Shown in pieces: positions 3,101 through 29,857 of a stretch of 34,729 bases of DNA. Below the pieces are notes generated by a model that was not told where the DNA came from, made no database searches, and saw only the letters and a list, made by a program, of their open reading frames with translations. The stretch spans positions 54,950 to 89,678 of the forward strand of contig VBOW01000022.1 of assembly GCA_005893275.1 (NCBI GenBank), given 5' to 3'. The stretch comes from Candidatus Eisenbacteria bacterium (lineage in GTDB: Bacteria > Eisenbacteria > RBG-16-71-46 > SZUA-252). The translations under genes and the position numbers were made by a program. Numbering within the stretch: the first letter of the stretch is position 1; every line of letters begins with the position of its first letter.

Positions 3101-6100
3101 CCCGGTCACAACCGGGTCCGGCGGGCCGGACCGATTCGGCTATACCTGGGCCGACAGCGACGAGCCCAACGGGCCGTCCTTCGGTTGGGTGGAAATCAGC
3201 GCGATAGGATCCGAGGTCCCCATATCCGGTGACGATGAGACCTCCTCACCCATTCCGATCGGGTTCCAGTTCAAGTTCTATGACACGACCTTCACGTCAT
3301 TCCAGGTCTGCACGAATGGGTTCCTGAGCTTCACCTCGTTTTCTTCGCCATTCACCAACCAGCCGCTGCCGAGCCTCGCGGCGCCGGAGAATCTGCTGGC
3401 TGCGTTTTGGGATGACCTGTTCGTCGGCCCCAGCTCCCGGGTGCTCACGCACACGGACGGATCGAGGATGGTCGTGGAGTTCCAAAATGTCCTTCTGCTG
3501 TCGGGCGCCGGGCCCTTCACCTTCGAGGTCATCCTGTTTCCGACCGGGACCATCTTGTACCAGTACCTCTCCATGGGAGGCCCCACGACCCTGGCCACCG
3601 TCGGATTCCAGAACGGCGCTCGGGATGACGGCGCGACGATCGCCTTCGACGCCCCGTATCTGCACGACCATCTGGCCATCCGGATCGCCTCGGCGCCCTC
3701 CTGGCTGCGCGTCGTGCCCGCGTCGGGAACCGTGCCTGCGGGGACCTCGGCTCCGGTCCAGGCGACCGTCGACGCGACCGGGGTCTTTCCGGGAGACTAC
3801 GCGGCCACGATCCGGTTCGGCAGCGACGATCCGGTTACGCCCAGCCTCAGCGTCCCGGTTACGCTCCACGCGCGCGGGGTGCCTCATCTCGAGGTCGATC
3901 CCATTTCGATCGACTTCGGCAACGTCTTCGTGGGCCAGAGCGCCACCCGATCGCTCACCATCCGAAACATGGGGACCGATGTCCTGACGGTGACCTCGAT
4001 CGGGGCCAGTGCCTCCGAGTACACGGCCAGCCCATCCGCGTTCAGTCTTCCCGCCCTCCAGAGCCTCGAGGTCCTGGTCACCTTCACGCCTGCCGCCGCG
4101 GGAACCAGGGGAAGCACCCTCACGATTCTGAGCAATGATCCGAGCTCTCCCCACGTCGTCTCGCTCGCGGCCTCCGCGCTGATCCCACCGGTAGTGGGGG
4201 TCAGTCCGCGAGAGATCGTGGCGGCGGCCTTGCCCGGCGGGCAGAAGGTCAAGACGCTCCGAGTGTGCAACACGGGCGGGAGCGGGCTCGATTTCACCGT
4301 CCCGTCTCCTCTGCTGACGGTCCCCGCCGTTGCTTCGGGGAGCTACGTGGGAAACGGGAAAGGAAGCCAGGATCCCCGTTCGGGCATCCTCGGAACCGGG
4401 GGCCCCGACGCCTTCGGACACGTCTGGACGGATAGTGACGATCCTGGAGGGCCGACCTTCCGGTGGATCGATATCACCTCGACGGGCACGAGGGTCCCGT
4501 TCGGATCGAACGAGGACGATCGAACCCTGGGTCCTTTCCCGATCGGGTTCGGGGTTCCGTTTTTCGGCGCGACCTTTGATTCGTTCCGCGTCAGCACGAA
4601 CGGGTGGGTGAGCTTCACGAGCGACGACAGCGGGTTCGACAACCAGCCTCTGCCCAATTCCCATCGCGGCGTGCCCGAAAACCTTCTCGCAATCTGCTGG
4701 GATGACCTGGTGCTTCGGGATGACGTAGGGAGCAGTGTCTACTTCCGGAATGACGGGGCAAAGCTGATCATTCAATTCAATAATTTGCGGCCGTTCAACC
4801 TGTTTTCGCCGGCGCTGTATACGTTTGAAGTCTTCCTCTATCCCAGCGGGGCTGTCCAGTATCAGTACCTCACGGTCGGCTCTCCTCTCAGTGGGGTCAC
4901 GGTCGGGATCCAGAACGCCGCGCGGGATGACGGGCTCACCGTGTCATTCAATTCGGCCTACCTTCACGGCAATCTGGCCATTCTTTTCACCGAGCCCCCT
5001 CGATGGATCGAGGTGTCCCCCAGCGCGGGGGTCGTTCCCACCGGGGGCTGTGTCGATCTCGCGGTTCACCTCGATGCCTCGCAGCTGGCGCCTGCGGACT
5101 ACTCGGCCGCCATCTCCGTGATGAGCAACGACCCGAGCAATCCGCGCATCGTGAGCAACGTCCTCTTCCACGTTGGATCGATCGACGCGGTGGCCGCGGA
5201 TGTGGATCCCAACACGCTCAACCTCGATAGCAACGGCCGATTCATACACGCGTCTCTGGAGCTTCCCGCGGGGTTGGATCCGAATCGGACCGTGCTCTCC
5301 ACGGTCCGATTCCAGGGACAGGTTCCCTGCAGTCAAGACGCGCTTGCCATCGGGGATTTCAACCATGATGGGATCGCAGATCTGAGATTCCAGTTCGATC
5401 GGGCTGCCGTGGAGGCGATCCTAACCGAGGGGGACCCGGTTCCCGTGACCGTCACGGGAGAGATCGAGGATACGATCTATTTCGTGGCGAGGCACAACCT
5501 TCGCGTGATCCGGCCCCGGGTGCACGCCCCCAATGGCGGTGAGACCTTGGTTTCCGGCGGGGGATTCCAGATCACGTGGAGTAATCCCGAAGGCTGGCAC
5601 GTCGACCATGCCGACCTCTACTACACGACCGACGATGGGGTTTCCTGGACTCTGATTGCCCAAGGAGTCATCGGACAGAGCTACGTGTGGCCGGTGCCCG
5701 CGGTACCATCGAGCGCCGCGCGTGTGCGCGTTTACCTCTATGATGCCGCGGGAATCATGGGCTACGATTCGAGCGACGGCGTATTCAGGATTACGCAGAT
5801 CACGGCGGTTGCTTCGGAAGAGGCGGCTCCGCCGGCCGTCCACGCGCTCTTCCAGAACAGCCCCAACCCCTTCAACCCGACCACGAGCATCCGCTTCGAC
5901 CTCCCTGTTCCTTCGTCGGTCCTGCTCATGGTCTACGACATCCAGGGTCGGACGGTCCAAACGCTGCTCCGGGGGTGGATGCCCGCGGGAAGACACAGGG
6001 CCACGTGGGATGGCCGCGACGACCGCGGACAAGACGTGGCTTCTGGGATTTACTACTACCGCCTCTGGGCCGGGGGATTTCAGGCAAACAAGCGAATGCT

Positions 6101-6113
6101 CTTGTTGAAGTAG
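1..6113 (+). CDS. Giant secreted multi-domain surface protein, 5'-truncated by the window edge
   Basis: Frame is open from base 3 to the TAG at 6111. The gene continues left of the window: the second copy of the internal repeat shows that the GTG at 3 is the Val of an internal PGSVGEIAG segment. Visible residues (about 2036) are modular. ASH/choice-of-anchor-D-like modules lie at about 372-475, 865-965 and 1294-1395. BACON-like halves of the type 'SNTGGNDL' and 'WL..P.SGTVP.G' recur around large guest domains. Guest 1 (about 68-312) looks ThuA/amidotransferase-like; guest 2 (about 513-803) is unrecognised; guests 3 and 4 (about 1004-1233 and 1435-1665) are paralogous, nidogen-like folds. After about 1727 come a cohesin/dockerin-like segment (GDFNHDGIADL), an Ig-like PNGGE domain, and a terminal FlgD-Ig-like sorting domain (NSPNPFNPTTSIRF, about 1860-2036). 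Probably exported and cell-surface anchored; the substrate or partner is unknown. Confidence 0.85.
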   Translation, partial: VGEIAGTLRVRSNDPDEGELSVSLTGTGLVPPEISVSPGSMSAALLTGQTDTQTLTISNTGGNDLSLQITVRRSNPPLGLGPGPAGANPGGATSQSSRSDASVAARIGTDDAGAAVLVIQDTSAWGLDMGSFLLSRFGITPTVIRSDQIASTDFTAYDLVITVGDEGPDYYGAISANVAKFEAFLAAGGTVQYQLATQGDDVSIANGVLVRYGNLERVNRVLLPDHPIVAGLPALLAGNFANHCTMTQLPARAKVITETAVSHLPTTVEYSVGPGNVIATGMPWEFLYLFGYEPGPMLYQATAYSLSLAHPRWMRTAPPTATVPPGGSVDVAVTFDASGLFGGGYDALIRVASNDPDEPEVRVPARLEVTGVTDIELSSAALSYGSVFVGGSRLDSLVVTNAGTDRLDVTEVSSSLADFLVSVGSFSLDPGERRVVMVTFHPGSVGEIAGTLRVRSNDPDEGELSVSLTGTGLVPPEISVSPGSMSAALLTGQTDTQTLTISNTGGNDLSFRLFAQMADSGAPVSSLPRTGGIPSPDQQRVGVAAAVVTGPTPNGSSPSTGPVVTAGEYSGSFLRFGITDYGEIMPFQYPLGNEHLRIGSYYSGYTVAYFSSGQDHVAFAATASRSGIVPVSYQELVNTLSELVVQVVTRTSDGSLEIRRLVSFQRDQKHVRIESRLRNTSAVPLTNVVFKAHADWDVDGDFDDDAWDYDPARHMTYASDVRFVAIASGRAPDLMDAYGWNDYDTRATTVDYPYGPIRGLDGMEVLHFELGDLAPSSSAVVATAYGAGDNLEELQQVMTRAVLLPWLSFRPESGTVPPGASANVAVTFNATGLFGGDYPADIAVENDDPTDSEVDVPAVLHVTAIPLIRVEPSALDFGTVFLGSSLSKDLTVFNDGTDRLSVTAMASDRTAYVPDASAFTLDPGGARVVHMTFTPTTDGSQPATFTIEHNAAGSRTTVALTGTGLVPPVISVSPVSIYSDLPTGGRQDHSILVSNGGGSDLHFTVTTFTGAASVAVRESASYGKGEIDPRVGDPVTTGSGGPDRFGYTWADSDEPNGPSFGWVEISAIGSEVPISGDDETSSPIPIGFQFKFYDTTFTSFQVCTNGFLSFTSFSSPFTNQPLPSLAAPENLLAAFWDDLFVGPSSRVLTHTDGSRMVVEFQNVLLLSGAGPFTFEVILFPTGTILYQYLSMGGPTTLATVGFQNGARDDGATIAFDAPYLHDHLAIRIASAPSWLRVVPASGTVPAGTSAPVQATVDATGVFPGDYAATIRFGSDDPVTPSLSVPVTLHARGVPHLEVDPISIDFGNVFVGQSATRSLTIRNMGTDVLTVTSIGASASEYTASPSAFSLPALQSLEVLVTFTPAAAGTRGSTLTILSNDPSSPHVVSLAASALIPPVVGVSPREIVAAALPGGQKVKTLRVCNTGGSGLDFTVPSPLLTVPAVASGSYVGNGKGSQDPRSGILGTGGPDAFGHVWTDSDDPGGPTFRWIDITSTGTRVPFGSNEDDRTLGPFPIGFGVPFFGATFDSFRVSTNGWVSFTSDDSGFDNQPLPNSHRGVPENLLAICWDDLVLRDDVGSSVYFRNDGAKLIIQFNNLRPFNLFSPALYTFEVFLYPSGAVQYQYLTVGSPLSGVTVGIQNAARDDGLTVSFNSAYLHGNLAILFTEPPRWIEVSPSAGVVPTGGCVDLAVHLDASQLAPADYSAAISVMSNDPSNPRIVSNVLFHVGSIDAVAADVDPNTLNLDSNGRFIHASLELPAGLDPNRTVLSTVRFQGQVPCSQDALAIGDFNHDGIADLRFQFDRAAVEAILTEGDPVPVTVTGEIEDTIYFVARHNLRVIRPRVHAPNGGETLVSGGGFQITWSNPEGWHVDHADLYYTTDDGVSWTLIAQGVIGQSYVWPVPAVPSSAARVRVYLYDAAGIMGYDSSDGVFRITQITAVASEEAAPPAVHALFQNSPNPFNPTTSIRFDLPVPSSVLLMVYDIQGRTVQTLLRGWMPAGRHRATWDGRDDRGQDVASGIYYYRLWAGGFQANKRMLLLK
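1333..1531 (+). repeat. 199-bp exact direct repeat, copy 2
   Basis: Second copy of bases 1-199, offset 1332 bp. Divergence starts at 200/1532, where each copy runs into a different guest domain. The copy sits in a tract (about 985-1490) with strongly G-ending codons (GTG, GCG, GGG, ACG, CTG), unlike the C-ending codons of the rest of the gene. Confidence 0.95.
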
Positions 6114-6146
6114 GTGTTGCGAGGCGGGAGGGCTGGACGGCGGCAC

Positions 6147-6170
6147 GCCGAAGCTCTATTTTGCTTCGGC
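6147..6170 (+). terminator. Hairpin after giant surface-protein gene
   Basis: GCCGAAGC (6147-6154) and GCTTCGGC (6163-6170) form a perfect 8-bp stem around the 8-nt loop TCTATTTT, 34 bases past the stop codon. There is no U-tract after it, so it is a terminator-like hairpin rather than a textbook intrinsic terminator. Confidence 0.5.
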
Positions 6171-6174
6171 TGCG

Positions 6175-6194
6175 GTTGACGCCGCGGCGTCAAC
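6175..6194. promoter_or_regulatory. 20-bp perfect palindrome directly before the patatin start
   Basis: Half-site GTTGACGCCG is followed at once by its exact reverse complement, ending 3 bases before the ATG at 6198. It occupies the place where a Shine-Dalgarno sequence would lie, and none is visible there. It could be a repressor operator or an mRNA hairpin that hides the start codon. Confidence 0.45.
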
Positions 6195-6197
6195 GCC

Positions 6198-8225
6198 ATG
6201 AGCGACCCTTACCGGAACCCCACGAGAGAATGTGATCTCGTCATGAAAGGCGGGATCACGAGCGGCCTCGTCTACCCGCAGGCTCTCCTCGAGCTGGCTC
6301 AGGAGTACCGGTTCCGATCCATCGGAGGCACATCGGCCGGCGCGATGGCGGCCTCTCTGGCCGCGGCGGCCGAGTATGGACGTGAGCCTTCGGATCCGAA
6401 AGGGAAGGGCGGTTTCGAGAAGCTGCGGGATCTGGACGAGTGGCTTTCCACGGGCCGGAATCTTCTCAGCCTCTTCCAGCCGAGTCGATCCACAGCCGCA
6501 TTGTATCGAGTGCTGCTCGCACTGAACGAGGAAGCGAGCCGTTCCGCCGGGCGTCTCTCGAAGGTCCGCCCGCATGCCGGTCGCATTTGGGCGGGACGCC
6601 TCAGGCGGCTCCTCGTGCTGCGAAAGGACGCGGTCAGCTTCTGGGCAGGTGGGATTTCGGGCGGGGCGCTCGGCCTGGCCCTCGCGTCTTGCGTCTTGCG
6701 GTCCGTGTTCCCGCACAGCGGCAGCTCCCTCGCGCTCGCGGCCTCGCTCGCCATCGTGATCAGCGGCTTCTCCCTTGGGCTGGTCGGCGCAATCCTCGGA
6801 AGCGGCTTGCACCTCTTCCGGATCGCGACCGGGCATTTGCCCAGGAATCATTTCGGCTTGTGCACCGGGCGAAAAGATTCAGAGTCGCCCTCCTCTCCCG
6901 ATGTCCTCACGGATTGGCTGAGCGCACGGATCAATGACCTCGCCGGGTTGGATCCCAACGGCCCGCCTCTCACCTTTGGGGATCTCCAACGAAAGGGCCT
7001 GTCCTTCCGGGAAGGAGGCACCGGCGGCGGGGAGCAAAGCATCGATCTCCGAATGATCGCGACGGACCTGAGCCACAACCAACCCTACGTGCTCCCCTTC
7101 GAGCAGCAGCTATTCCTGTTCCAGGAAGAGGAGATGCGCCGCTTCTTCCCAGCCAACATCGTGGAGAGAATGACCCACGCGAAAAGATCGGAACGCGTTT
7201 CCCTGGAAAGGCTACCCGGGGTTCATTTCGTGCCGGATGCCGCGGATCTCCCCATCGTCTTCGCAGCGCGCCTCAGCATGAGCTTTCCCGCGCTGCTGAG
7301 CGCGGTTCCCCTCTACACGATCCGACAGTCCGCCTTTGAGATTCGACGCGTGGGGGAGAGGGTTGTCCTCGAGCATCCGGACGAAGACCTCCAGGAGAAT
7401 CTCTTCAGCGACGGGGGGATCGCGAGCAATTTCCCGATCCATTTCTTCGATCGATGGCTCCCCGGCCGTCCGACATTCGGGATTAATCTGACCCAGATGC
7501 CCGAGGAATCATTTGAAGCGGAGTTGCCCGTCACCACGCAGAGGGGCGTGACCTCCAGAAAGATACTCCGGGCGGAGTGCTTCAGTCGTGTGTCGTCCGA
7601 GTCGCCCGGGGAGGACCCCGAGTTCGTGCGATCGGTCTATCTTCCCAAAGCGAATGCCCCGCGGCGCCCGGAGTGGGTGTCGATCAAGAGCCTCGCGGAA
7701 TTTTTCGGTGCGGTCTGGACGACCGCGCAGAATCATCGCGACAGGACGCAGGCGATGCTCCCCAGCTATCGGGACCGGATCGTGAACATCCGCTTCTCTC
7801 GAGGCGAGGGCGGCCTGAATTTGGCGATGGGGTCCGACCGGATCGAAAGTATTCGAAGGAAGGGGCGGGCGGCGGGAAAGATGCTTCGCAACTTCACCTT
7901 CGATGAGCACCGCTGGGTCCGCTTCCTGGTCCTGTTGGACGAGCTCGAGGCGGAGCTTTTCAAGCTGAGGGAGCGGTTTGCGACGCCTCTCCCGTACGAG
8001 GATCTCCTCATCGATGGGGTGGCGCGCGGGCATCCTTATCCACGGTCCGTCGCGTGGCGACAGGAAGCGCTCGCACGAATGGAGTTTCTCCTGCACATGG
8101 TCGGGCAATGGGAGGACCGGCAGGTCACGTGGAGCGCGAGCCACCCCGGTTGGGGCGACGCGCGCTTTTTCGAAAAGGACGGTCCTAAGCCCGAGGGTTC
8201 CCTTCGAGTGACCCCTAAGGTCTAG
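6198..8225 (+). CDS. Patatin-like phospholipase with inserted membrane hairpin
   Basis: 675 aa. The patatin fold is shown by the glycine-rich oxyanion segment near the N-terminus (MKGGITSGLVYP), the nucleophile elbow GTSAG with Ser46, and the catalytic Asp405 in DGGIASNFP. The Ser/Asp dyad hydrolyses acyl esters of phospholipids or neutral lipids. Unusually, about 360 residues separate Ser and Asp. This stretch holds two hydrophobic segments (about 145-172 and 176-208) that would form a transmembrane hairpin, so the enzyme is probably membrane-attached. The C-terminal 200 residues are charged, of unknown role. ATG at 6198 is the only start close to the conserved N-terminus; no ribosome-binding site is visible because the palindrome occupies it. 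A PH-domain membrane protein follows after 45 bp, probably in the same transcript. The lipid substrate is unknown. Confidence 0.88.
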   Translation: MSDPYRNPTRECDLVMKGGITSGLVYPQALLELAQEYRFRSIGGTSAGAMAASLAAAAEYGREPSDPKGKGGFEKLRDLDEWLSTGRNLLSLFQPSRSTAALYRVLLALNEEASRSAGRLSKVRPHAGRIWAGRLRRLLVLRKDAVSFWAGGISGGALGLALASCVLRSVFPHSGSSLALAASLAIVISGFSLGLVGAILGSGLHLFRIATGHLPRNHFGLCTGRKDSESPSSPDVLTDWLSARINDLAGLDPNGPPLTFGDLQRKGLSFREGGTGGGEQSIDLRMIATDLSHNQPYVLPFEQQLFLFQEEEMRRFFPANIVERMTHAKRSERVSLERLPGVHFVPDAADLPIVFAARLSMSFPALLSAVPLYTIRQSAFEIRRVGERVVLEHPDEDLQENLFSDGGIASNFPIHFFDRWLPGRPTFGINLTQMPEESFEAELPVTTQRGVTSRKILRAECFSRVSSESPGEDPEFVRSVYLPKANAPRRPEWVSIKSLAEFFGAVWTTAQNHRDRTQAMLPSYRDRIVNIRFSRGEGGLNLAMGSDRIESIRRKGRAAGKMLRNFTFDEHRWVRFLVLLDELEAELFKLRERFATPLPYEDLLIDGVARGHPYPRSVAWRQEALARMEFLLHMVGQWEDRQVTWSASHPGWGDARFFEKDGPKPEGSLRVTPKV

Positions 8226-8270
8226 GGAAGGAGCCGATACGCACCGCGGGGCCGGAAACGGAGGAGGGTC

Positions 8271-8774
8271 TTGAGCTACGTTGATAAGAATCTCATTCCA
8301 GGAGAAACAATCCTATACAGGACCAAGCTTCACTGGGTGGTGCTCCTCTGGCCCGTGCTGGTGGGCTCGTTCCTCGGTCTGGCATCCCTGGTCCTGATTT
8401 TCGGCGCGGTCGGGGCCCGCGCCGGCGACCATCAGTCCCATGCCGTCGCGACGGGCGCTGGACTGTTCTTCCTCCTGGTTGCCGCCGCGATCACAGGGTT
8501 TGGGATTCTTCGACGAAACGCGACGGAGATTGCGGTGACGAACAAGCGAGTTCTCATCAAGACGGGGCTTCTCAGCCGGCGCACCATCGAATTGCTTATC
8601 TCGAAGATTGAAAGCATCGGCGTCGACGAGTCTCCCTTCGGAAGAATCCTCGGCTTCGGAACGGTGATCGTGCGCGGTACGGGTGGAACCCCTGAGTCGT
8701 TCGACCGGATTGCCCATCCTCTGGAGTTCAGAAGGCAGGTGCACGGCCAAGTGGATCCGGCGCAGGGGCGCTAG
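8271..8774 (+). CDS. Bacterial PH-domain (bPH2/YdbS-type) membrane protein
   Basis: 167 aa. Start is TTG at 8271, chosen for the strong ribosome-binding site GGAGGAGGG just upstream and for the family-typical N-terminus MSYVDKNLIPGE. Two transmembrane helices (about 17-45 and 61-80) precede a compact PH-like beta domain (about 84-160) with the usual 'T.NKRVLIKTGLLSRRT.EL...KIESI' core and 'GFGTVIVRGTGG'. Proteins of this family (DUF304) sit in the inner membrane with the PH domain in the cytoplasm; their ligands are mostly unknown. The position 45 bp after the patatin gene suggests joint transcription and a lipid-related role, which is inference. Confidence 0.88.
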   Translation: MSYVDKNLIPGETILYRTKLHWVVLLWPVLVGSFLGLASLVLIFGAVGARAGDHQSHAVATGAGLFFLLVAAAITGFGILRRNATEIAVTNKRVLIKTGLLSRRTIELLISKIESIGVDESPFGRILGFGTVIVRGTGGTPESFDRIAHPLEFRRQVHGQVDPAQGR

Positions 8775-8813
8775 AGCGCACGCGCGCATGCCCCTCACCC
8801 CCCGAGTCCATCC

Positions 8814-11789
8814 TCAAATCAGGTCCCGGAGAAAGCGGCCCAGATTGCGCAGCAACCCGGTCGGCTCGGGGAAGTAGACGTCCAGTTCTTTCGCATTCAC
8901 GGGCCACGTCGCCGTTCCCATCAGAAACGCGAAATCGATCATCGCCGGAAGACAATCATCTCCCGAGACCGCGGTCAGGGCCTCGCCGTCGAGAAACATG
9001 CTCCGCCGGTCCTGATTGTGGGATCCGAGGGTGGAGATCACGATGGCGCCCCCGCGCCGCGTACAGGAAACCGAGTCCGGGATGAGCGAGCGGCCGATCG
9101 CGTCCGAGTCAACCGCAGCCCCCAACGACTGGTGTCTCCGTGCTTCGAGGTAACGGCTGAGAACTCCCGCCCACTCCTCCCGAGCCAGCAGCGAGAGGGC
9201 GGCCTCATTTGCGAAGAACTGGGCCTTCAGGTGCATGTGAGGCTTGTGCGGATTCGCGACCGATATTTCGTCCACAGGCGCCGTGTGCGTCTCTTGCATG
9301 CGGGAATACTCCTCGCGCAGGACTTGCACGACGGAGGGATGGATATGAAATCGATCGCGCAGAGGAGTGTCGCGGCATTCCTTCTCGAGCATGCGCTCCA
9401 CGAGCGCGCATACGTCGTTCACGTCGCGATCATTGGTGTAGAGGCCGACCCGCAGCGTCCCTCCCGCGGCACGAATCGCGTCGCCGAGCAGCTCGGAGGA
9501 GCGAAGGAGGACCCAAAGGGTCTGGTGCATGAGGCCCATCGTCGGTAATGCGCTGCTGGGCGCGTTCTCACGCGCCGGCGCGATGGGGAATGCGTGACAC
9601 CCGCGCAGCGCGGCGGAGACGAACATTCCGGCCCAGAAATCGCTAGTCCAAAGCGAGTCCGGCGCCAGCAGGACGGCGCCGCGCTGCATGAGGTTATAGA
9701 GCGCCGCCTTCAGCACCGTTGCCGTTTTCATTCGGAACCCCGTTCCGTTCATGACGGCCAGCACGTTCGCGGTCCACCCCGCGGAACGGAGGGAGTCGCA
9801 GGTCCTCGCGTAGGTCGCTGGAAAGGGTCCTTCTCGCAGGAAACCCGGCAGCTCATCGGGGTGGATGCCCTGGGTCACGAGAAGGCTCCGGGCGGCGGTC
9901 TTCAGACGAACCAGCTCCGTTCCACGCAGGACCAGGCTCCGGTCCTCCCATTGAGGTCCGACATAGTGTTCTCCCACGCCGAGCCCAGTGAAGATCGCCT
10001 CACCGGACGCCGGGTTCTCCTCGAAGACGTCTCGGAAGGCGAGCTTCGTGTGATCGCGCATCAGCATGTCGTCCATGAAGGTTGGGTCGTAAGGGTGGGT
10101 GATCGCGACCTGAACCCTGACCCGTCGCCTGAGGTATCGCTCGCCGCGGCTCCTCATCGCGCTCGACTGTTCGAGGGTCTCGCGGAGGCGCACGACCCCG
10201 GAACGCACCCGAGATTCCAGGTTGGCGTCGGAGAGGTGGGGTGCCTTGGTCGAACCTAGGTTCTCTAGAAAGGAGAGCACCTCTTGGGACCCGTTCGTGC
10301 GGTAGTAGTGCTCGTCGAGAAGGATGAGGAATTCCGGCAGATCCGAGCGCTCGCCGCGGTCCATGGCCCGGACCGCCCGGATGAAGGCTTCGATGTAGCC
10401 GTCCACCGCAAGCGCCCAGGCAATCCGGTCAGGCCCCTTCGCGTCGTTGCGCCCGCTGTAGTCGTGGACCCAGAGGACGTGGTGGCTTCGCGTCTCGAGG
10501 ATGGAACGTCGCAGCTCGCGGAAGAACTGCTCGTTCAGTACGTACCGGACCGTGTTGGCGGACGAAAAAGGCTGTCCCACGACCGCGCCGAGAACCGAAT
10601 CGAGCTCGGCCTGGGAATCGTACTCGTCAGGGCGGAGCCCGTAATTCAGGGGGAGCCAGACCAGGCGCCACGTCCGCCAGCGCCGGTGGGCGGATCGTGC
10701 CACCTCGTCGAGCTGCTCCAACACTTGACGAAATACCTCGCGAGCCGCGTCACGCTCCGTCGCGCCAAGCCGCGCTTCAGGCTGTGAGAGCGAGGCGCCA
10801 AATTCAGCGCAGGCCCCTTCGAGGAGTCCGGTCAGCTCGCCGGGTCGTTTGATACGGCCGAGGAGACGATTGTACGGAAGGATTACCTTGCGCAGGAGGA
10901 TGGCGCGAGCCCTCGCTGCAAGGGCCTCGCCGATGGCAGCGTCTCCACCCGCGGCGAGCGCGAACGCCTCCGCCAGGCAGGCGTGGTAGGAAGAGTCCTC
11001 CGCCGCGAAGGAGTGACCGGGCTGGACCACGTGCTCCCTCAAGGCTGCGGCCTCTCGCTCGAACGCCTCGCGCCCCTTTCGACTTGTAGCACCCCGCGGG
11101 GTCATGTTCGGAGTGAGCAGCCGGTCCATCCATTCCATCGAGTGACGGACGCGCGCCACATCGACCGCCGGCCAGAGGGCCGGCTCCGGTGGGACGGGAC
11201 GCGGGAGCCTCCCTCGCGCCATCGCCACGTGGGCGTTCCGCGGCCGGGTAGCTCTGTAGTCCGCCCATGGAAAGGGCATTTTCATTCCAGCCTCGAGGCT
11301 CCGCCTGGCGGGGATGTAATCGATCCGCACGCGATCGCCGCGCCCCAAGATGCCGCCTCGGCGCGGGGCGCCCTGGAGCGAGAGCTTGATGAACGGCTTG
11401 CTCGCGTGGAGGTCGTATTCGAACCCGCCGCGGAGAATGGGCAGCTTCAAGGAGGCGCCGAACGTGCCGCCCGACCCTTCCCCTCTCCTCATATAGGTCC
11501 CCTCGAACGCGACGTCGATGAGGCCAAACTGTGGGGCCGCCACCCGCCCTTCCATGTCGAGCAGAAAGCGGTAGGTTGGCCGCTCCGCCCGAAATCCATA
11601 GCCGGCAAGGGTGCCCCATTCAAAGCGGTAGTAAGGAGGCTGGCCGAGGGGGAAGGCTTTCAGTGTCGGCGGGAACGTGGGCGGATTCGTGGCCGAGGGA
11701 CTTGGTTCGGCCGCTCCGGATGCGGGGTACAATGTGAGCGTGGTAGCGAACACGAGGGAAACTGCGTGTGCTACGAACGCGGATTTCAT
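8814..11789 (-). CDS. Large exported phospholipase-D-superfamily protein
   Basis: 991 aa from the ATG at 11789, chosen because it opens a signal peptide (MKSAFVAHAVSLVFATTLTL..ASGA), has a GAAGGGGG ribosome-binding site and lies just behind a good sigma-70-type promoter. The open frame runs a further 148 codons upstream, but that part is antisense to the MBL gene and looks non-coding. HKD motif 1 is HTKLAFRD (about residue 580), followed by GLGVGEHY and a W.D..L.L.G segment. Motif 2 is HLKAQFF (about 851) with GSHNQDRRSMFLDGE (about 921). The second motif lacks the usual Asp, so the two halves are asymmetric. PLD enzymes cut or transfer phosphodiester head groups through a His intermediate. 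The N-terminal 550 residues include a beta-rich stretch (about 45-200) and a helical region not recognised. Probably periplasmic or outer-membrane associated. Confidence 0.75.
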   Translation of the reverse strand: MKSAFVAHAVSLVFATTLTLYPASGAAEPSPSATNPPTFPPTLKAFPLGQPPYYRFEWGTLAGYGFRAERPTYRFLLDMEGRVAAPQFGLIDVAFEGTYMRRGEGSGGTFGASLKLPILRGGFEYDLHASKPFIKLSLQGAPRRGGILGRGDRVRIDYIPARRSLEAGMKMPFPWADYRATRPRNAHVAMARGRLPRPVPPEPALWPAVDVARVRHSMEWMDRLLTPNMTPRGATSRKGREAFEREAAALREHVVQPGHSFAAEDSSYHACLAEAFALAAGGDAAIGEALAARARAILLRKVILPYNRLLGRIKRPGELTGLLEGACAEFGASLSQPEARLGATERDAAREVFRQVLEQLDEVARSAHRRWRTWRLVWLPLNYGLRPDEYDSQAELDSVLGAVVGQPFSSANTVRYVLNEQFFRELRRSILETRSHHVLWVHDYSGRNDAKGPDRIAWALAVDGYIEAFIRAVRAMDRGERSDLPEFLILLDEHYYRTNGSQEVLSFLENLGSTKAPHLSDANLESRVRSGVVRLRETLEQSSAMRSRGERYLRRRVRVQVAITHPYDPTFMDDMLMRDHTKLAFRDVFEENPASGEAIFTGLGVGEHYVGPQWEDRSLVLRGTELVRLKTAARSLLVTQGIHPDELPGFLREGPFPATYARTCDSLRSAGWTANVLAVMNGTGFRMKTATVLKAALYNLMQRGAVLLAPDSLWTSDFWAGMFVSAALRGCHAFPIAPARENAPSSALPTMGLMHQTLWVLLRSSELLGDAIRAAGGTLRVGLYTNDRDVNDVCALVERMLEKECRDTPLRDRFHIHPSVVQVLREEYSRMQETHTAPVDEISVANPHKPHMHLKAQFFANEAALSLLAREEWAGVLSRYLEARRHQSLGAAVDSDAIGRSLIPDSVSCTRRGGAIVISTLGSHNQDRRSMFLDGEALTAVSGDDCLPAMIDFAFLMGTATWPVNAKELDVYFPEPTGLLRNLGRFLRDLI

Positions 11790-23574: not shown

Positions 23575-26163
23575 CTACCCCTCCGGTCGGACCCATCCCT
23601 CCTCGGGCAGGAGCGCCTTGTGCCCGGACGGGCGGATCTTGCGGTAGATCTCCGAAGGGTTGCGTTCCCGGCCCTCGACGGTCAATAGCGCGCGGAGCGG
23701 GATCCCGAAGAGCCGCTCGTTTTCTTCGAGGTAAGGCCGCGCGACCTCCCAATCTTCGGGTCCCAGCTCGGCAAACTCTCCCCCGTTCAGCTGATCCTCC
23801 GTGAGCGTCCGCCCCGGATCCCGGACGTAGATCGCGCCCCCCGAGGCGAGCGAAAAGAGATTTCCTCCGGGGTAGGGGCTTTCGAGATCGCGCAGCGCGC
23901 CGTCCTCGTCGAAGGCGATGCCGTTCAAGATCACGAAACCGCCTCCGCTCAGAGGATCACCGGCCATGAAGGATTCGGCCAGGTAGTCGAGGCACGTCCC
24001 GTTGATCACGACGCGGGGGCGTCCCACGGCATTGATCATCGGACGCCCCGCCGCGTTTCCCAGGATGAACGCCCTGCCGCCTTTCGCGCCGTACATGAAC
24101 GTCTGCCCGATGTCGCCGTGCACGACGAGTGTCCCGTCCTTCATGATCTGCGCGAGCTGATCCTGAGCCGAGCCGTGGACGTGGACCGAAGCGCCGTCGA
24201 TCCCCGAAGCGAGATAATCTCCGGAGGATCCAAACACGTCGATGTGGAGCCCGCGTGTCTCCGGGCCCAAACCGCAAGCTATGAACCGCTGCCCGCGGAC
24301 GTCGAATGCCAGGATTCGCCGGAAACCGCGCCGGTGAAGCCCGACGATCCCCCGCGCGAGAGAGTCCGCCCCCTCGGGAGGAAACCGCCGCGCGTCGACG
24401 ATCGCGACCCCTCCCTCCCCGTAGGGGGACGGCATCGGGACGCCGAACTCATACCACGCGTGCCGTGCATCGCGCGCCTCTCGGGCTTCCGTGAGCACGC
24501 GAACCAAGGAGCGATCCATCATCGAGAGCACGCAGCTTCGCTTCATGGAGCCGGTCGGGTAGCGCCGGTCGATCAGGAGCGTGAGCAGGGAGACGATCTC
24601 CAGCCGGTCCGTCCCTTCCCGCGCGGCCTGCTCCAGCTCCTCGAGGAGACTCGCGACATCGGAGTAGTCCCATGCGGGAGCCCGCTCGCGGATCATCCCG
24701 AACCGGCTGGCCGGATCCTGGGTCCGCTCGAGGATGTCGGCGGGGTTCGTCGTCCGGGCGCCGCTCGGAGGGATCGCGCCCGAGAAGGCGCGCTTGGACG
24801 GGTCGGGCTCGATCCTATTTCCGAACTTGTCCTCGCAGCGGAAGGCGCTGCCGTCCCCGCCGTTCGGACCCACCGTGAACGTGAAGGCGCCTCCGTCGGT
24901 GTGGCTTCCGCCTCGCGCGTTCCAGAACAGGTCGGCCCGCGACCAATAGCGGGGATCTTCGCTCGCCAAGCTCTCGAGCGCCGCGTCGATCGCCTGTTTC
25001 TCGGAAGCCGCGAATCCGATTGACGCTGAGCCGCATTGAATCGCGAACACCTGCGGCCGAAGCATGGAGGTGTCCGTGATCCCGATCAGGCGCTTTTCCC
25101 CGTTTTGGGGGTCGGACTGCGCGATGAGGAAGAACCACGGGCCGTCGGGCGAGCCGTGGATGTGCACGGCATGCAGCTTACGGTAGAGATTCCGGCGTTC
25201 CTCGGGCAGGAGCGTGAAATCGCGTTCCGTGGTCGGCGCCATCGCCTCGATCACGTACTCGAGTGGATAACCGTACACTCTGCTCAGGAGATCGAAGGCC
25301 AGGACGGCGACCTCGGTATCGGTGAGGTAGAGCGGATAGATCTTCCGCTGTGCGAGATAGCTCGAGATCGAGGCGTAGTTTGCGAAGTCCCCGTTATGGA
25401 CGAGAGCTTCGTGCATGCCGATGAAAGGGTGGGCGCCCCCCGGGTGCCATACCCGCCCCTTCGTCGGATAGCGGTGGTGGCCGATCCAAATGTTCGCGTG
25501 AAAGTTCTCGAGACCATAAGCGCGAATGACGTCTTCTCCGTAGCCGACCATCTTGAGGACGAGCATGTCCTTGCCATGGGACAGGACGAACGCGCGCTTC
25601 TCGCCCGTCGAGGCGTAACACTCCCGGTTCAGGCGGTACGTGTTCTGGTACACGATCTCGTCTTCCGCGGCGCGCCCGTCGGCAATGCCGTGGGCGCGCA
25701 CGAACTCGGCGCGTGCCTCCTCCCGCACGCGAACGAAGTAGCACGCTACCTCCGGCGGGGGGACATCCAGTCGGAGCTCCTTTTGCGCGCCGGCGAGAAG
25801 CGGGATCTCGGTGGTATGGTCCACCACGAAGGTGGGCTCGACGAAAGTCCTCTCCACATGGGCGCGGACGGACCGGTCGAGGAAGGCCACGGCGAGCAGG
25901 TAGTTCTCGGCGAGGACGCGGGCGGGCACCCCGAAGAACTCGGGATCGAGGCCGACCGCGGCGATGCCCCCTCCCTTGCCGTTTCCCCGGTTTCGCATTT
26001 GCAGGAGAGACTGCAAGAGGTGGCGTCCGGCGACGGCCTCGCTCGAGGCGATCCCGATGACGCCGCAGCCTCCTTCGGCCTCGACGGGGCGGACCGGGGC
26101 GTGCGGCGGCTTCTCGAGGAAGCCGCGCGAGGCGAGGATCGCATCCGCTCTAGCGCGCGGCAT
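23575..26163 (-). CDS. Class II glutamine amidotransferase fused to a GltB-type GXGXG domain
   Basis: 862 aa from ATG at 26163, which overlaps the upstream FMN gene by 14 bases. A longer frame to 26229 would lie inside that gene. Residues 1-32 look like a propeptide ahead of Cys33 in GG-CGVIGIAS, the N-terminal nucleophile of class II amidotransferases. RYPTKG and HNGDFANY (about 256) are further glutaminase motifs. The C-terminal third (about 590-790) is a beta-helical GXGXG domain of the glutamate-synthase/FwdC type (HVHGSAQDQLAQIMKDGT, GDIGQTFMYGAKGG, GNAAGRPMINAVG). In archaeal-type and Glx-type enzymes these two domains are separate proteins; here they are one chain without the FMN barrel between. 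The protein should release ammonia from glutamine for the FMN subunit encoded just upstream. Confidence 0.85.
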   Translation of the reverse strand: MPRARADAILASRGFLEKPPHAPVRPVEAEGGCGVIGIASSEAVAGRHLLQSLLQMRNRGNGKGGGIAAVGLDPEFFGVPARVLAENYLLAVAFLDRSVRAHVERTFVEPTFVVDHTTEIPLLAGAQKELRLDVPPPEVACYFVRVREEARAEFVRAHGIADGRAAEDEIVYQNTYRLNRECYASTGEKRAFVLSHGKDMLVLKMVGYGEDVIRAYGLENFHANIWIGHHRYPTKGRVWHPGGAHPFIGMHEALVHNGDFANYASISSYLAQRKIYPLYLTDTEVAVLAFDLLSRVYGYPLEYVIEAMAPTTERDFTLLPEERRNLYRKLHAVHIHGSPDGPWFFLIAQSDPQNGEKRLIGITDTSMLRPQVFAIQCGSASIGFAASEKQAIDAALESLASEDPRYWSRADLFWNARGGSHTDGGAFTFTVGPNGGDGSAFRCEDKFGNRIEPDPSKRAFSGAIPPSGARTTNPADILERTQDPASRFGMIRERAPAWDYSDVASLLEELEQAAREGTDRLEIVSLLTLLIDRRYPTGSMKRSCVLSMMDRSLVRVLTEAREARDARHAWYEFGVPMPSPYGEGGVAIVDARRFPPEGADSLARGIVGLHRRGFRRILAFDVRGQRFIACGLGPETRGLHIDVFGSSGDYLASGIDGASVHVHGSAQDQLAQIMKDGTLVVHGDIGQTFMYGAKGGRAFILGNAAGRPMINAVGRPRVVINGTCLDYLAESFMAGDPLSGGGFVILNGIAFDEDGALRDLESPYPGGNLFSLASGGAIYVRDPGRTLTEDQLNGGEFAELGPEDWEVARPYLEENERLFGIPLRALLTVEGRERNPSEIYRKIRPSGHKALLPEEGWVRPEG

Positions 26164-27484
26164 GTTCCACGTCCCGCGAGGCCTTCGCGGCCGGCCGGCC
26201 GGCGTAGGTGAGCACGTCGGTGCGGCCACGAAGCTCGCGGACGCTCCGCATTCCGAGTTGACGCAATAGCTCGGCGAGCTGCCACTGGAAGGATTCGTAC
26301 AGGCGGCTGATGCGACCGCGGCCCCATTCCGGTTCCACGAGCTTCGAAAGCTCGGGGTCGGTGGTGGTCAGACCAAAGGGGCACCCGCGGCCGCGCTCGC
26401 AATTGCTGCAACGCGTGCATCCGAGCGCGACCAGCTCGGTGGTCCCCAGGATGCAGCCGTCCGCGCCCAAGGCGATCGCTTTCGCGATGTCGTCCGCGGT
26501 CCGGATTCCGCCGCTCGCCATGAGCACGATCTCGTCGCGGATCCCCTCGCTCGAAAGGAAACGATGGACGCGCGGGATGGCGAGCTCGATCGGCATCGCA
26601 ATATTCTTCTTCGCGATCTCGGGCGCGGCGCCCGTTCCGCCGTAGCTCCCGTCGATGTGCAGGATGTGGGCGCCGGTGTAGTAGCTGCCCACGGCCACCA
26701 TGTCGACGTCGGTCGGGGTGGATACCTTCACCGAGACGAGCGCCTCCGGGTGCATCGCCTTGATCCAATCGACGTGCTTCTTGTGGTCCTCGACCGAGTA
26801 CACGCTGTGAAAGGGGAACGGCGAGAAGAGACTCACCCAGGGCACGCTTTCGCGCATCCTCGCCACCGCCATCGTGGCCTTGTCCCCCAAGAGATGGCCG
26901 CCGAGGCCGGGCTTGGCTCCCTGGGCGTACTTGAATTCGACGATCGGCGCGCGAAGAATCGTCTCCTCGCGCACGCCGAACATTCCGGTCGCGACCTGGG
27001 TGATGACGTGGTCTCGATACTGCGCCACGGAGTCGGGGTAGCCGCCTTCCCCGGTGCAGGTGAAGGTGCGCCATTCTTTCGCGGCCATCGCCCGCGCCAG
27101 CATGATCTGCTCGCTGATCGAGCCGTAGGACATTCCCGCTCCGTACCATGGGACCGGGATCTCGATCTTGCGGTCGTAGGGCCGCCGGTTGAGCGAGATC
27201 GAGGTGTCGATGGGTTCCGTTTCGGGAAGCCGGCGCTCGGGACCCGCAGATCGAAACCCGAGGAGATCGAAACCGCCCCCGGACCTTCCGACTCGATACT
27301 CGAGGCCGTTCCGCGGAGGGCGGCCCGTCTCCGCCTGGATCCAGGTGGCGAGAACGAGGTCGGGAGACCACCGCGCATCCCCGAGGGCCGGGGGCATGAA
27401 GCCGAGCCCGGGCCAATCGTGAAAGCCCTGATGCAGGGCGTGCCGGTGCTTTTCGACGATGAGTTCGATCGCGGTCACGGTCAT
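26150..27484 (-). CDS. Glutamate-synthase-type FMN/[3Fe-4S] subunit
   Basis: 444 aa, the usual length of stand-alone FMN-binding glutamate synthase domains (GltB2/GlxD type). A TIM barrel is recognisable by PVPWYGAGMSYGSIS, GEGGYPDS, KYAQGAKPGLGGHLLG, HIDGSYGGTGAAP and the FMN-phosphate loop ASGGIRTADD. The iron-sulfur loop follows with Cys356, Cys359, Cys362 and Cys368 in CTRCSNCERGRGCPFG. These match the family's substrate channel, in which ammonia from the glutaminase aminates a 2-oxo acid. The start ATG overlaps the stop of the upstream paralogue as ATGA, so translation is coupled. No GltD-like NADPH subunit is encoded nearby, so the electron source is probably a ferredoxin or the iron-sulfur paralogue. 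Confidence 0.88.
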   Translation of the reverse strand: MTVTAIELIVEKHRHALHQGFHDWPGLGFMPPALGDARWSPDLVLATWIQAETGRPPRNGLEYRVGRSGGGFDLLGFRSAGPERRLPETEPIDTSISLNRRPYDRKIEIPVPWYGAGMSYGSISEQIMLARAMAAKEWRTFTCTGEGGYPDSVAQYRDHVITQVATGMFGVREETILRAPIVEFKYAQGAKPGLGGHLLGDKATMAVARMRESVPWVSLFSPFPFHSVYSVEDHKKHVDWIKAMHPEALVSVKVSTPTDVDMVAVGSYYTGAHILHIDGSYGGTGAAPEIAKKNIAMPIELAIPRVHRFLSSEGIRDEIVLMASGGIRTADDIAKAIALGADGCILGTTELVALGCTRCSNCERGRGCPFGLTTTDPELSKLVEPEWGRGRISRLYESFQWQLAELLRQLGMRSVRELRGRTDVLTYAGRPAAKASRDVEHAAR

Positions 27485-28923
27485 CCTTCGTACCCTTCAA
27501 TCCCCGCGAACGCCTCGCGCTCCAATTCCTTCTGGAACATGCACCGGCCCACCTCGCCTCGGAGCCTCCGCACTTCGCGCAGGCCCATCGCGCCCAAGAT
27601 CTCGAGAAGCTGATCCCGCCACGAGGCGGAGAGGTTCACGAGCCGCTGGACCGCCCAGGTATGATCCAGGCCGGGCAGCCGGATCGCCGCGGCCCCGGGG
27701 TCCCGCCCGGGCCCGCGAAAACGAGCCTGGAGCGCGACCATCGGCGCCATCTCGAGCGCGACCGCGTCGAGCCCGCAGATGATCGCCTTGGGCACGTGCT
27801 CGGCCAGCACGATTCCGCCGCTTCCGATCAGCGTCACCTCCTCGCGGACGCCATCCAGGACGAGCTTTCGGTGGATCTCGAGGATCACGTCCCCGAAGAA
27901 CCGGCCCCCGGCGCGCGCGGTTTCGTCCGCCACGAGATGAAGCACGCGGGCGCCGGCCCGAACCATTTCCGGCACGTCGGTCCCGGCGGGGACGCGGACC
28001 GCGACGACGCTTTCGGGGAAGCGACCGCGGATTCGCTCGTAGCGCTCCCGGTTCCATCCTTCGAGGAGAAGCATTCGCGGGATCCAGCACATGCGCTCCA
28101 GGGCCGCGTCCTCCTCGGAGCGCACGAGGGGGACGACCTCCGGGCTCTCGGGAAGCCCCGCCGCCAGGGGAAAGGGGACCACGGCGAGCGAGTCGATCCG
28201 TCGGGCGGCCTCGGCCGTCACATGCAGAAGTGCATCCGACCGGACAGCCGGCGGCGGCACGTCGAACAGGAAGGGAACCTGGATCGCGAAGACCCGAGGC
28301 TCCGAGCCGCTGACCCGGCCTTCCTCATCGAACGCGAGGTAGGGGGGTTTCTCGCCGATCTCCGTCACGGTTGAGATGAACTCCCGGCCGTGGATCCCAT
28401 CGCGCGTAGGCCGTACGATTTCCGACATGTCCGTCCACATTCCATCCCAGCCCGGCCCGCCGAACATGCCTCGGTACCCCGCGCCGCGCACGGGTACGCG
28501 TCCGGTCCGCGCCTCGTAGAGGATCGTGTCCACCTGGTCGGGGCCCAGATCGGATCCCGGCAGCCCGGCACGCTCCGGGTTCGGGTGGATCTGCACGATA
28601 TCCGGATACTGGGTTGTGCACCGCAAGCATCCGACGCAGGAATGCTCGCGCGGGGCGAGCCCGCCGAGGGGCCCCGAGAAAACACCGTAAACGCACGGAC
28701 GACTCAGGACGACCGGCATGTTGCCGCGGTACTGGACGAGCTCCTTGAGGAGGAGACCGATCAGACGATGTTTCTTCACCCGGACCCGAAAGCGCGACGG
28801 ATGCGGATACAGGTCGGGCGCGGGCTTTGTCTCGATGTGATAGCGCTTGTACGTGCTCACAGAGTCTCGCGGACCCAAACAGGCCAAGGACCAGAGTCGG
28901 TCGACATGCGGATAAGGCCCCAT
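27481..28923 (-). CDS. Glutamate-synthase-related paralogue with ferredoxin-like cysteine cluster
   Basis: 480 aa from ATG 28923 (AGG at six bases); GTG 28860, giving MSTYKRYHIETKP, is a good alternative start. Near the N-terminus lies Cys77 then CVGCLRC (Cys96, Cys99, Cys102), a ferredoxin-like site whose usual fourth Cys is replaced by Tyr, so Cys77 may complete the cluster. The remainder resembles the FMN barrel: GGPGWDGMWTDMSEIVRPTRDG, then IGSGGIVLAEHVPKAIICGLDAV (about 365). The position of the [3Fe-4S] loop in the neighbour reads ALQARFRGPG and has no cysteines. It may be an electron-entry or regulatory subunit that pairs with the canonical FMN subunit. Its stop overlaps that gene's start. 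Confidence 0.72.
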   Translation of the reverse strand: MGPYPHVDRLWSLACLGPRDSVSTYKRYHIETKPAPDLYPHPSRFRVRVKKHRLIGLLLKELVQYRGNMPVVLSRPCVYGVFSGPLGGLAPREHSCVGCLRCTTQYPDIVQIHPNPERAGLPGSDLGPDQVDTILYEARTGRVPVRGAGYRGMFGGPGWDGMWTDMSEIVRPTRDGIHGREFISTVTEIGEKPPYLAFDEEGRVSGSEPRVFAIQVPFLFDVPPPAVRSDALLHVTAEAARRIDSLAVVPFPLAAGLPESPEVVPLVRSEEDAALERMCWIPRMLLLEGWNRERYERIRGRFPESVVAVRVPAGTDVPEMVRAGARVLHLVADETARAGGRFFGDVILEIHRKLVLDGVREEVTLIGSGGIVLAEHVPKAIICGLDAVALEMAPMVALQARFRGPGRDPGAAAIRLPGLDHTWAVQRLVNLSASWRDQLLEILGAMGLREVRRLRGEVGRCMFQKELEREAFAGIEGYEG

Positions 28924-28996: not shown

Positions 28997-29857
28997 TCAC
29001 TCGTCGAACAGCACGGTGCTCTCCTCGTAGAAGCGCACCTGTTTCTGCGCGACCCGTTCCGCGATCCAGCCCTCTAGCCAACGGTTCTTCTCCCCGAGCG
29101 GACGAGCGGGATCGGCCAGGATTTCGAGGGGGATGTTGACGCGGAGCGCCCTCCAGGGGATCAGATGGCGGGTGATGCCGGCGGGAAGACGGGCCCCGCT
29201 CGAGGCGATCTCGAGAATCTCGTCGGGATGGAATCGCGGGAACACGACGAGCGCGGTGACGTCCGGAAACCGCGCCCGGGCGTCCGCCAGCGAGTCGCGC
29301 ATCACCCGATGGAAGGGTGCCCGCTCCCGGTAGATGTCGACCACGGCGTTCAAGAGGGCGTTTCGCTCGTAGAGGCCGCGGCCGCCGTGGAGCGTGAGGG
29401 CGCGATCCTCATCCGCCACGACGTACGCGATCGCCTCACGCCGCGCGAGCAGGGCACGCGCCTGACTCAGGCCCTCGGGACGCCGCTCCAGGCCGGGGAG
29501 AGCCGCGAGCTCGCGCTCCAGCGCCTCGAACGAGCTCCCCGAGATCGCGTGGTGCCATGTGGATAGCTGGATCTCGGGGTCGTCATAGCGCACCGCTTGG
29601 ATGAGCATGTGCGGCAGCCCCGCGGTGGCCGTGGCGGCCACGCGATTGGCGCCGTCCAGGACCACGAAGCGCTCCTCCCGATGGGGCGGGGCGATGGGGG
29701 TCGCGATGGGCGGGTTCTTGAGATGGCCGGACCGGCGAAGCCGTTCGCTCAAGCGCCTGGTGCGGCTCTCGTCCTCCCGCTCGTGGGGTACGAGCGAGGA
29801 CACAGGAACGATTCGCAGATCGGGGAGCTTGAAATCGGAGTGACCGGCCGGGGACAT
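28997..29857 (-). CDS. ParB-fold SerK/SbnI-like protein (possible free-serine kinase)
   Basis: 286 aa. The N-terminal domain has the ParB/SerK pattern: IVPVSSLVPHEREDE with His25-Glu26, then VLDGANRVAAT with Asp68-Gly69 and Asn71-Arg72. SbnI and archaeal SerK use this fold to phosphorylate free L-serine with ATP or ADP, with a glutamate of the HE motif and the DGxHR loop in the active site. Here the His of DGxHR is Asn, so activity is uncertain. The C-terminal half includes PRFHPDEI and is not a DNA-binding domain I recognise. It lies 73 bases upstream of the glutamate-synthase-related genes and 33 bases after the HAD gene on the same strand. A role in amino-acid metabolism with these genes is inference. 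Confidence 0.65.
   Translation of the reverse strand: MSPAGHSDFKLPDLRIVPVSSLVPHEREDESRTRRLSERLRRSGHLKNPPIATPIAPPHREERFVVLDGANRVAATATAGLPHMLIQAVRYDDPEIQLSTWHHAISGSSFEALERELAALPGLERRPEGLSQARALLARREAIAYVVADEDRALTLHGGRGLYERNALLNAVVDIYRERAPFHRVMRDSLADARARFPDVTALVVFPRFHPDEILEIASSGARLPAGITRHLIPWRALRVNIPLEILADPARPLGEKNRWLEGWIAERVAQKQVRFYEESTVLFDE

Follow-up and report, generated by a model that had tools for sequence, protein, structure and literature searches.

Glutamate synthases (GOGAT) of the GltB type (GltS) include the bacterial NADPH-dependent enzyme GltB/GltD and the ferredoxin-dependent enzyme (A. brasilense 1ea0/2vdc/6s6s; Synechocystis 1ofd). They share four domain types: a PurF-type glutaminase, a rudimentary barrel, a flavin mononucleotide (FMN)/Fe–S barrel and a GXGXG domain. 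Classical GltB carries these on a single chain of ~1,500 amino acids (aa) in the order glutaminase–central–FMN–GXGXG, the central domain being a rudimentary FMN barrel. The split archaeal, Glx- and Mgs-type sets are not one GltB chain; their glutaminase, GXGXG and FMN parts are found on separate polypeptides, and ferredoxin domains are located on the FMN subunit. In addition, two papers describe putative F420-dependent enzymes, FGltS(I) and FGltS(II), and an FrhB10 cluster of anaerobic methanotrophic (ANME) archaea, in which GltS subunits are combined with an exchangeable electron-input subunit (PMC3448663, PMC9012536). Here we analyse a 34,729-nucleotide stretch (the window) of Candidatus Eisenbacteria bacterium (assembly GCA_005893275.1, contig VBOW01000022.1, positions 54,950 to 89,678 of the forward strand), which contains a trio of genes encoding the proteins Pa, Pb and Pc. 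We put at about 0.7 the probability that the trio represents a distinct, widespread and permuted class of glutamate synthase with Pa as its Fe–S electron entry.

The trio consists of three intact, overlapping open reading frames (ORFs) on the minus strand, at the position where the original prediction had placed three overlapping genes. Pa and Pb overlap by 4 bp (ATGA), the third-position GC content (GC3) of the three genes is 0.825–0.852 and of coding type, and the GC content of the region is not deviant. The trio appears to share all four domain types with GltB, with a Pa–Pb order that would correspond to central–FMN. However, the domains are split and permuted into Pa–Pb–(glutaminase–GXGXG) on three ORFs instead of one chain, GltD is absent, the cluster loop has four cysteines, the rudimentary barrel carries ferredoxin-type ligands, and the proteins form separate clades. 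Like the Glx/Mgs sets, the trio departs from the single GltB chain and has ferredoxin domains on its FMN subunit, but its glutaminase and GXGXG domains are fused and an extra dead barrel is present. The proposal that this arrangement differs from both GltB and Glx is supported by the fused Pc, the second barrel and the position of the clades outside GltB. What sequence and structure prediction show here is the domain content, an active site kept in Pb and lost in Pa, a conserved operon, fusions between modules and the absence of GltD.

Pb matches PF01645 (E = 1.4e-87) and solved GltS (1.3e-50). The window Pb has the active-site motifs of the GltS FMN domain: of the 67 columns that do not vary across Pb and GltB, it keeps nearly all, with few substitutions, including KxxQGAKPGxGGxL, GEGG and GGTG. 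The cluster loop contains four cysteines (C356-x2-C359-x2-C362-x5-C368) and may hold a [4Fe–4S] cluster, whereas most classical GltB compared have a three-cysteine [3Fe–4S] loop (C-x5-C-x4-C). The earlier description of Pb as a canonical FMN/[3Fe–4S] subunit therefore stands for the FMN active site and fails for the loop. An N-terminal ferredoxin domain with at least eight cysteines is found in 59 of 61 Pb proteins, the exceptions being the window copy, which has lost it, and locus L021, whose ORF start is doubtful.

Pc contains a GXGXG domain (E = 3.7e-12) and a GATase_6 domain (E = 2.7e-5), confirming the direct fusion of a class II glutaminase with GXGXG, the two terminal domains of GltB. 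The glutaminase motifs are intact; the catalytic cysteine (Cys33 in the window), RYPT, HNGD and TDTE do not differ between the window copy, L010 and L011, and the cysteine motif is present in all 48 Pc proteins. In homologues this cysteine usually follows a leader of ~33–36 residues, and classical GltB has a leader of similar length. With a start at ATG 26163, 32 residues precede Cys33 in the window, which makes this start (862 aa) likelier than GTG 26229, up to which the ORF extends. The leader is probably processed.

Pa gives only a weak hmmscan match to PF01645 (5e-5). Its AlphaFold2 model, built with 70 Pa sequences, has a pLDDT of 79.5 (mostly >90 in the barrel) and a pTM of 0.80. Foldseek matches the model to FMN-dependent 2-hydroxyacid oxidases (lactate oxidase) and type 2 IDI (E 7e-10). 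Because the match probability is 1.00 while the TM score reaches only ~0.4–0.5, Pa is modelled as a recognisable but degenerate FMN-type barrel, the fold expected of this 480-aa protein. In essentially all 36 Pa proteins compared, a deletion removes the segment corresponding to Pb K185–H226 (KxxQGAKPGxGGxL ... SPxxxH), and the GEGG and GGTG motifs, in columns invariant in Pb and classical GltB, are gone. By these losses Pa is predicted to be an FMN-barrel copy without catalytic activity, most like the GltB central domain. The extra FMN paralogue of the original prediction would thus not be a second FMN enzyme.

A typical Pa, like a typical Pb, contains a 2[4Fe–4S] ferredoxin domain and a four-cysteine loop in the barrel. 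The window Pa retains the invariant segment WTDMSEIVRPTRDGIHGRE and the cysteines C77, C96, C99 and C102, which had been singled out correctly and are invariant in 70 of 70 separate Pa proteins aligned, the window copy included. It also lacks the barrel-loop cysteines, as noted before, although they are present in 34–35 of 36 Pa, and at least 90% of the homologues have them. In 2[4Fe–4S] ferredoxins one cluster is usually bound by the last cysteine of one motif and the first three of the other. We take C77 to be the last cysteine of motif 1 and C96, C99 and C102 to be the first three of motif 2. On this usual pattern, the window Pa would hold all four ligands of one [4Fe–4S] cluster and none of the other.

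No match to PF04898, the GltB central domain, was obtained for Pa by hmmscan. In hhalign, Pa and the GltB central domains align over 175 columns with a probability of 93% (E 2.7e-7), a little above Pb (91%) and above the GltB FMN domain (70%) in the same comparison. Moreover, the model of a fused Pa–Pb protein (L068) finds GltS as all of its top 7 PDB matches, over 778–919 columns and with E-values of 1e-23 to 1e-27, compared with 1e-10 for single barrels. Since fused Pa–Pb proteins match solved GltS colinearly, Pa looks like the positional counterpart of the GltB central domain, so that all four GltB domains would be present in permuted form.

When 84,980 species genomes were searched with the Pa alignment, at least 545 relatives were obtained, of which the best 80 were kept. 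The loci were chosen on Pa; the adjacency of Pb and Pc is independent evidence. Among these best 80, Pa occurs in ANME-1/Methanophagales, Methanocellales, Thermoplasmatota, Desulfobacterota, Nitrospirota, Chloroflexi, Latescibacterota, Poribacteria and others. Many of the carriers are anaerobes. The Pa–Pb–Pc order is found in nearly all loci with a long enough contig, with 48 intact glutaminase–GXGXG fusions (including the window, L010 and L011) and six Pa–Pb fusions. Conservation of the trio beyond the window genome, which the original prediction had named as a check, is borne out by archaeal sets and sets from many bacterial phyla that share its gene order. In a tree built by a quick method, Pa (36 sequences) and Pb (36) each form one clade (SH-aLRT 99) and GltB forms another (98); neither Pa nor Pb falls within ordinary GltB/GltD systems, the placement that, combined with a GltD encoded elsewhere in the same genomes, the original prediction had named as a refutation. 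In the Pa half as in the Pb half, L011, L015 and Thermoplasmatota group with the window, the Pb grouping having a support of 89, below the star threshold. These shared companions suggest that Pa and Pb are inherited jointly.

The trio is therefore a widespread class, not peculiar to the window genome, and the window copy is an Fe–S-depleted member of it. This copy shows the gene order, the invariant Pa segment, C77/C96/C99/C102 and membership of the single Pa and Pb clades. It lacks the full Fe–S set that is typical, not universal, in the class: Pb has no 2[4Fe–4S] domain, and Pa has neither cluster I nor the loop cysteines. A Pa–Pb fusion in L011 (6597–9065, minus strand) is devoid of ferredoxin cysteines and has a three-cysteine Pb loop, representing a second, apparently independent Fe–S-poor version.

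Among 83 sequences, the genomic neighbours include glutamine synthetase (GS; 23), PII (13), Amt (12) and CarA, CarB and HisF (8–9 each), and HisHF neighbourhoods occur as well. Among 79 Desulfobacterota genomes, Pa is found at E<1e-100 in 25 and classical GltB in 15; both occur together in 3, a number that by itself is near the chance expectation of 4.7. Classical GltB is absent from 22 of the 25 Desulfobacterota trio genomes and from 14 of 15 further trio genomes checked. Because most trio genomes checked lack classical GltB, the trio is most likely their glutamate synthase. The window genome (2.88 Mb, 99.65% complete) encodes one GS, and no other GltB was found in it. PF14691, used for GltD-type proteins, has 0 matches across this genome, which agrees with the predicted lack of a GltD subunit; on this result GltD-fed operation was rejected there.

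Other GltS-like sets were encountered in the same survey. In L072 (15724–20867, plus strand) a complete Glx-like set (glutaminase, FMN/ferredoxin, and GXGXG fused to a GltD-like domain) is located directly downstream of a trio and belongs to separate families. Another architecture, a 1,016-aa chain of GXGXG, FMN and a degenerate second FMN-like barrel, is found in Desulfospira (G036; L166, 589–3639, plus strand).

Two kinds of redox module occur directly upstream of Pa in the 83 sequences. FlpD/MvhD, MetV and MetF (PF02662, PF12225, PF02219) are present in 45, 40 and 41 loci, respectively; these are the genes of the known MvhD–MetV–MetF set, here placed directly before Pa–Pb–Pc. Alternatively, an FAD_binding_4 (flavin adenine dinucleotide, FAD) oxidase with Fer4 takes this position in 21 loci. 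In L222 and L223 the FAD oxidase, ferredoxin domains and all trio parts are joined in single chains (Table 1), and L224 (G057) has the same fusion with a frame break. In f11 genomes, which belong to the window's own class, a chain of 2,235–2,284 aa follows an FAD oxidase with a C-terminal 2[4Fe–4S] domain (L144, L145). The fusions strongly indicate that the parts act as a single electron-transfer complex; 2-hydroxyacids or methyl-tetrahydrofolate (methyl-THF) as the oxidised substrate are guesses. The glutaminase cysteine of the ~2,530-aa chains lies within the sequence (near residue 1,664), which predicts either that the chain is cut just before it or that the glutaminase is unusual. If it is a normal N-terminal-nucleophile enzyme, the cleavage would regenerate the subunit boundary of the trio. 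Desulfospira (G036, L039) and TRIP AH-1 (G037, L070) have six MetV matches each, with one set preceding the trio. This suggests that MetVF paralogues serve as electron modules for different enzymes, and the GltS-linked copy may be specialised. MetV is absent from the window genome, and no close FAD-oxidase–Fer4 protein was found in it, the best hit (E 5.5e-9, 25% identity) covering the FAD part only.

PMC3448663 and PMC9012536 define these systems by an FrhB/Fsr-N-like subunit, and the sections consulted make no mention of a Pa-type second barrel, a glutaminase–GXGXG fusion or FAD-oxidase/MetVF modules. PMC9012536 also notes GltS subunits in ANME gene clusters. Apart from these FGltS and ANME notes, no description of the trio as an enzyme class was found in the open-access literature.

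Table 1 Positions of the trio, its upstream neighbour, and the fused or adjoining chains of relatives
Feature	Position	Strand	Length and content
Pa	27481-28923	-	480 aa; pseudo-FMN barrel after remnant ferredoxin domain; first in transcription order
Pb	26150-27484	-	444 aa; catalytic FMN/Fe–S glutamate synthase domain; cluster loop C356/C359/C362/C368
Pc	23575-26163 (ORF to GTG 26229)	-	862 aa; class II glutaminase, linker, GXGXG beta-helix, C-terminal tail
SerK/SbnI-like protein	28997-29857	-	ParB-type; O-phosphoserine-forming; 73 bp upstream of Pa
L222 single chain	1966-9552	-	2,528 aa; FAD_binding_4 oxidase–Fer4–2[4Fe–4S]–Pa–Pb–glutaminase–GXGXG; Desulfobacterota; beside GlnA, CarA
L223 single chain	3092-10726	-	2,544 aa; domain order as in L222; Desulfobacterota
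L144 chain	2084-8938	-	2,284 aa; Pa–Pb–glutaminase–GXGXG; Pfam recognises PF01645 part only
L144 FAD oxidase–ferredoxin	8710-11328	-	872 aa; overlaps the chain from upstream
L145 chain and FAD oxidase–ferredoxin	2127-8834; 8615-11011	-; -	2,235-aa chain; genes overlap

For the trio we infer the reaction, ammonia channel, cluster types, electron path and donor as follows. Pc would hydrolyse glutamine at its N-terminal cysteine, probably exposed by leader processing, and the ammonia would be passed to Pb, where 2-oxoglutarate would be aminated and reduced by FMN. Pa, a dead barrel in place of the GltB central domain, would let electrons enter via its Fe–S clusters. In relatives these may be delivered by the upstream FAD-oxidase/ferredoxin protein or the MvhD–MetV–MetF module. 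Since the window trio keeps only one ferredoxin-type cluster in Pa and one barrel cluster in Pb, the likeliest donor here is a soluble one of low potential, either ferredoxin or an FAD protein from another locus. The ferredoxin-fed synthase of the original prediction fits the family, since 59 of 61 Pb and the majority of Pa bear ferredoxin domains. A variant with another electron path, in which Pa of a true glutamate synthase is only a scaffold and a soluble donor feeds the Pb cluster directly, seems to us unlikely. It agrees with the L011 Pa, which is devoid of ferredoxin ligands, and with the single-chain Pa of f11, where the ferredoxin domain is located on the FAD protein instead, but not with the four cysteines that remain invariant in all 70 separate Pa, even in the stripped-down window copy.

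An improbable alternative is that the trio keeps the GltS fold while aminating another keto acid or transferring another amine, in the manner of N-methylglutamate synthase. In its favour, some Glx/Mgs-type relatives have other roles, the frequent MetF–MetV neighbours suggest one-carbon chemistry, and the window genome contains glutamate dehydrogenase and the SerK-like gene directly upstream. Another acceptor is less likely because of the GS/PII/Amt neighbours and the preserved GltS motifs, with the GltB/Pb-invariant active-site columns kept; the CarAB and HisHF neighbourhoods and the lack of classical GltB in most trio genomes also argue against it. The SerK-like gene is probably co-transcribed with the trio. 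It was rejected as a part of the system, being kept in relatives without the trio and absent among the conserved trio neighbours, and is native to the family independently of the trio. An Rfam scan of the window gave no matches.

It is still less probable that the trio of the window is a remnant, gained horizontally and decaying or repurposed, which would be losing Fe–S ligands for want of an electron donor and would be mainly a glutaminase or inactive: patchy presence, the lost Pb ferredoxin domain, Pa cluster I and Pa loop ligands, the long Pa branch (0.93) and the lack of a linked redox module would fit, but the three ORFs are intact and overlapping with coding GC3, neither the active site of Pb nor the glutaminase motifs of Pc are damaged, L011 is similarly Fe–S-poor, and the cysteines lost from Pa correspond to exactly one ferredoxin and one loop cluster, with all four ligands of the remaining ferredoxin cluster kept, a coherent and not a random pattern.

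Several findings weigh against the reading of the trio as a permuted glutamate synthase with Pa as electron entry. The fused-pair model has a pTM of 0.50 and a root-mean-square deviation of 16–18 Å, so the barrel–barrel arrangement is not established. Pa resembles Pb more closely than it does the GltB central domain, and the two degenerate barrels, Pa and that domain, might have separate origins. The window copy lacks most Fe–S ligands, and neither redox module lies beside it. Two glutamate dehydrogenases are encoded in the window genome, which could in principle dispense with a glutamate synthase. Pa is found in only 3 of 36 genomes of the phylum and in none of 6 genus or family relatives; horizontal gain or repeated loss is possible.

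Glutamate synthase is a central entry of nitrogen into metabolism, and the trio appears to be the sole GltB-type glutamate synthase in most carriers checked, among them sulfate reducers and ANME archaea that have not been cultured. A tentative extension of our reading, to which we give distinctly less weight, is that a duplicated, dead FMN barrel turned into an Fe–S electron-entry subunit, and that the role of GltD is taken by plug-in modules of the FAD-oxidase or methylene-THF-reductase-like kind, through which glutamate synthesis could draw on 2-hydroxyacid or C1-folate oxidation. If so, Pa would show how the rudimentary central barrel of GltB arose, and the window copy would be the class stripped to two predicted clusters. 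The trio makes testable the origin of the non-catalytic GltB barrel, the delivery of electrons to GltS without GltD, and the driving of ammonia assimilation by one-carbon or 2-hydroxyacid oxidation.

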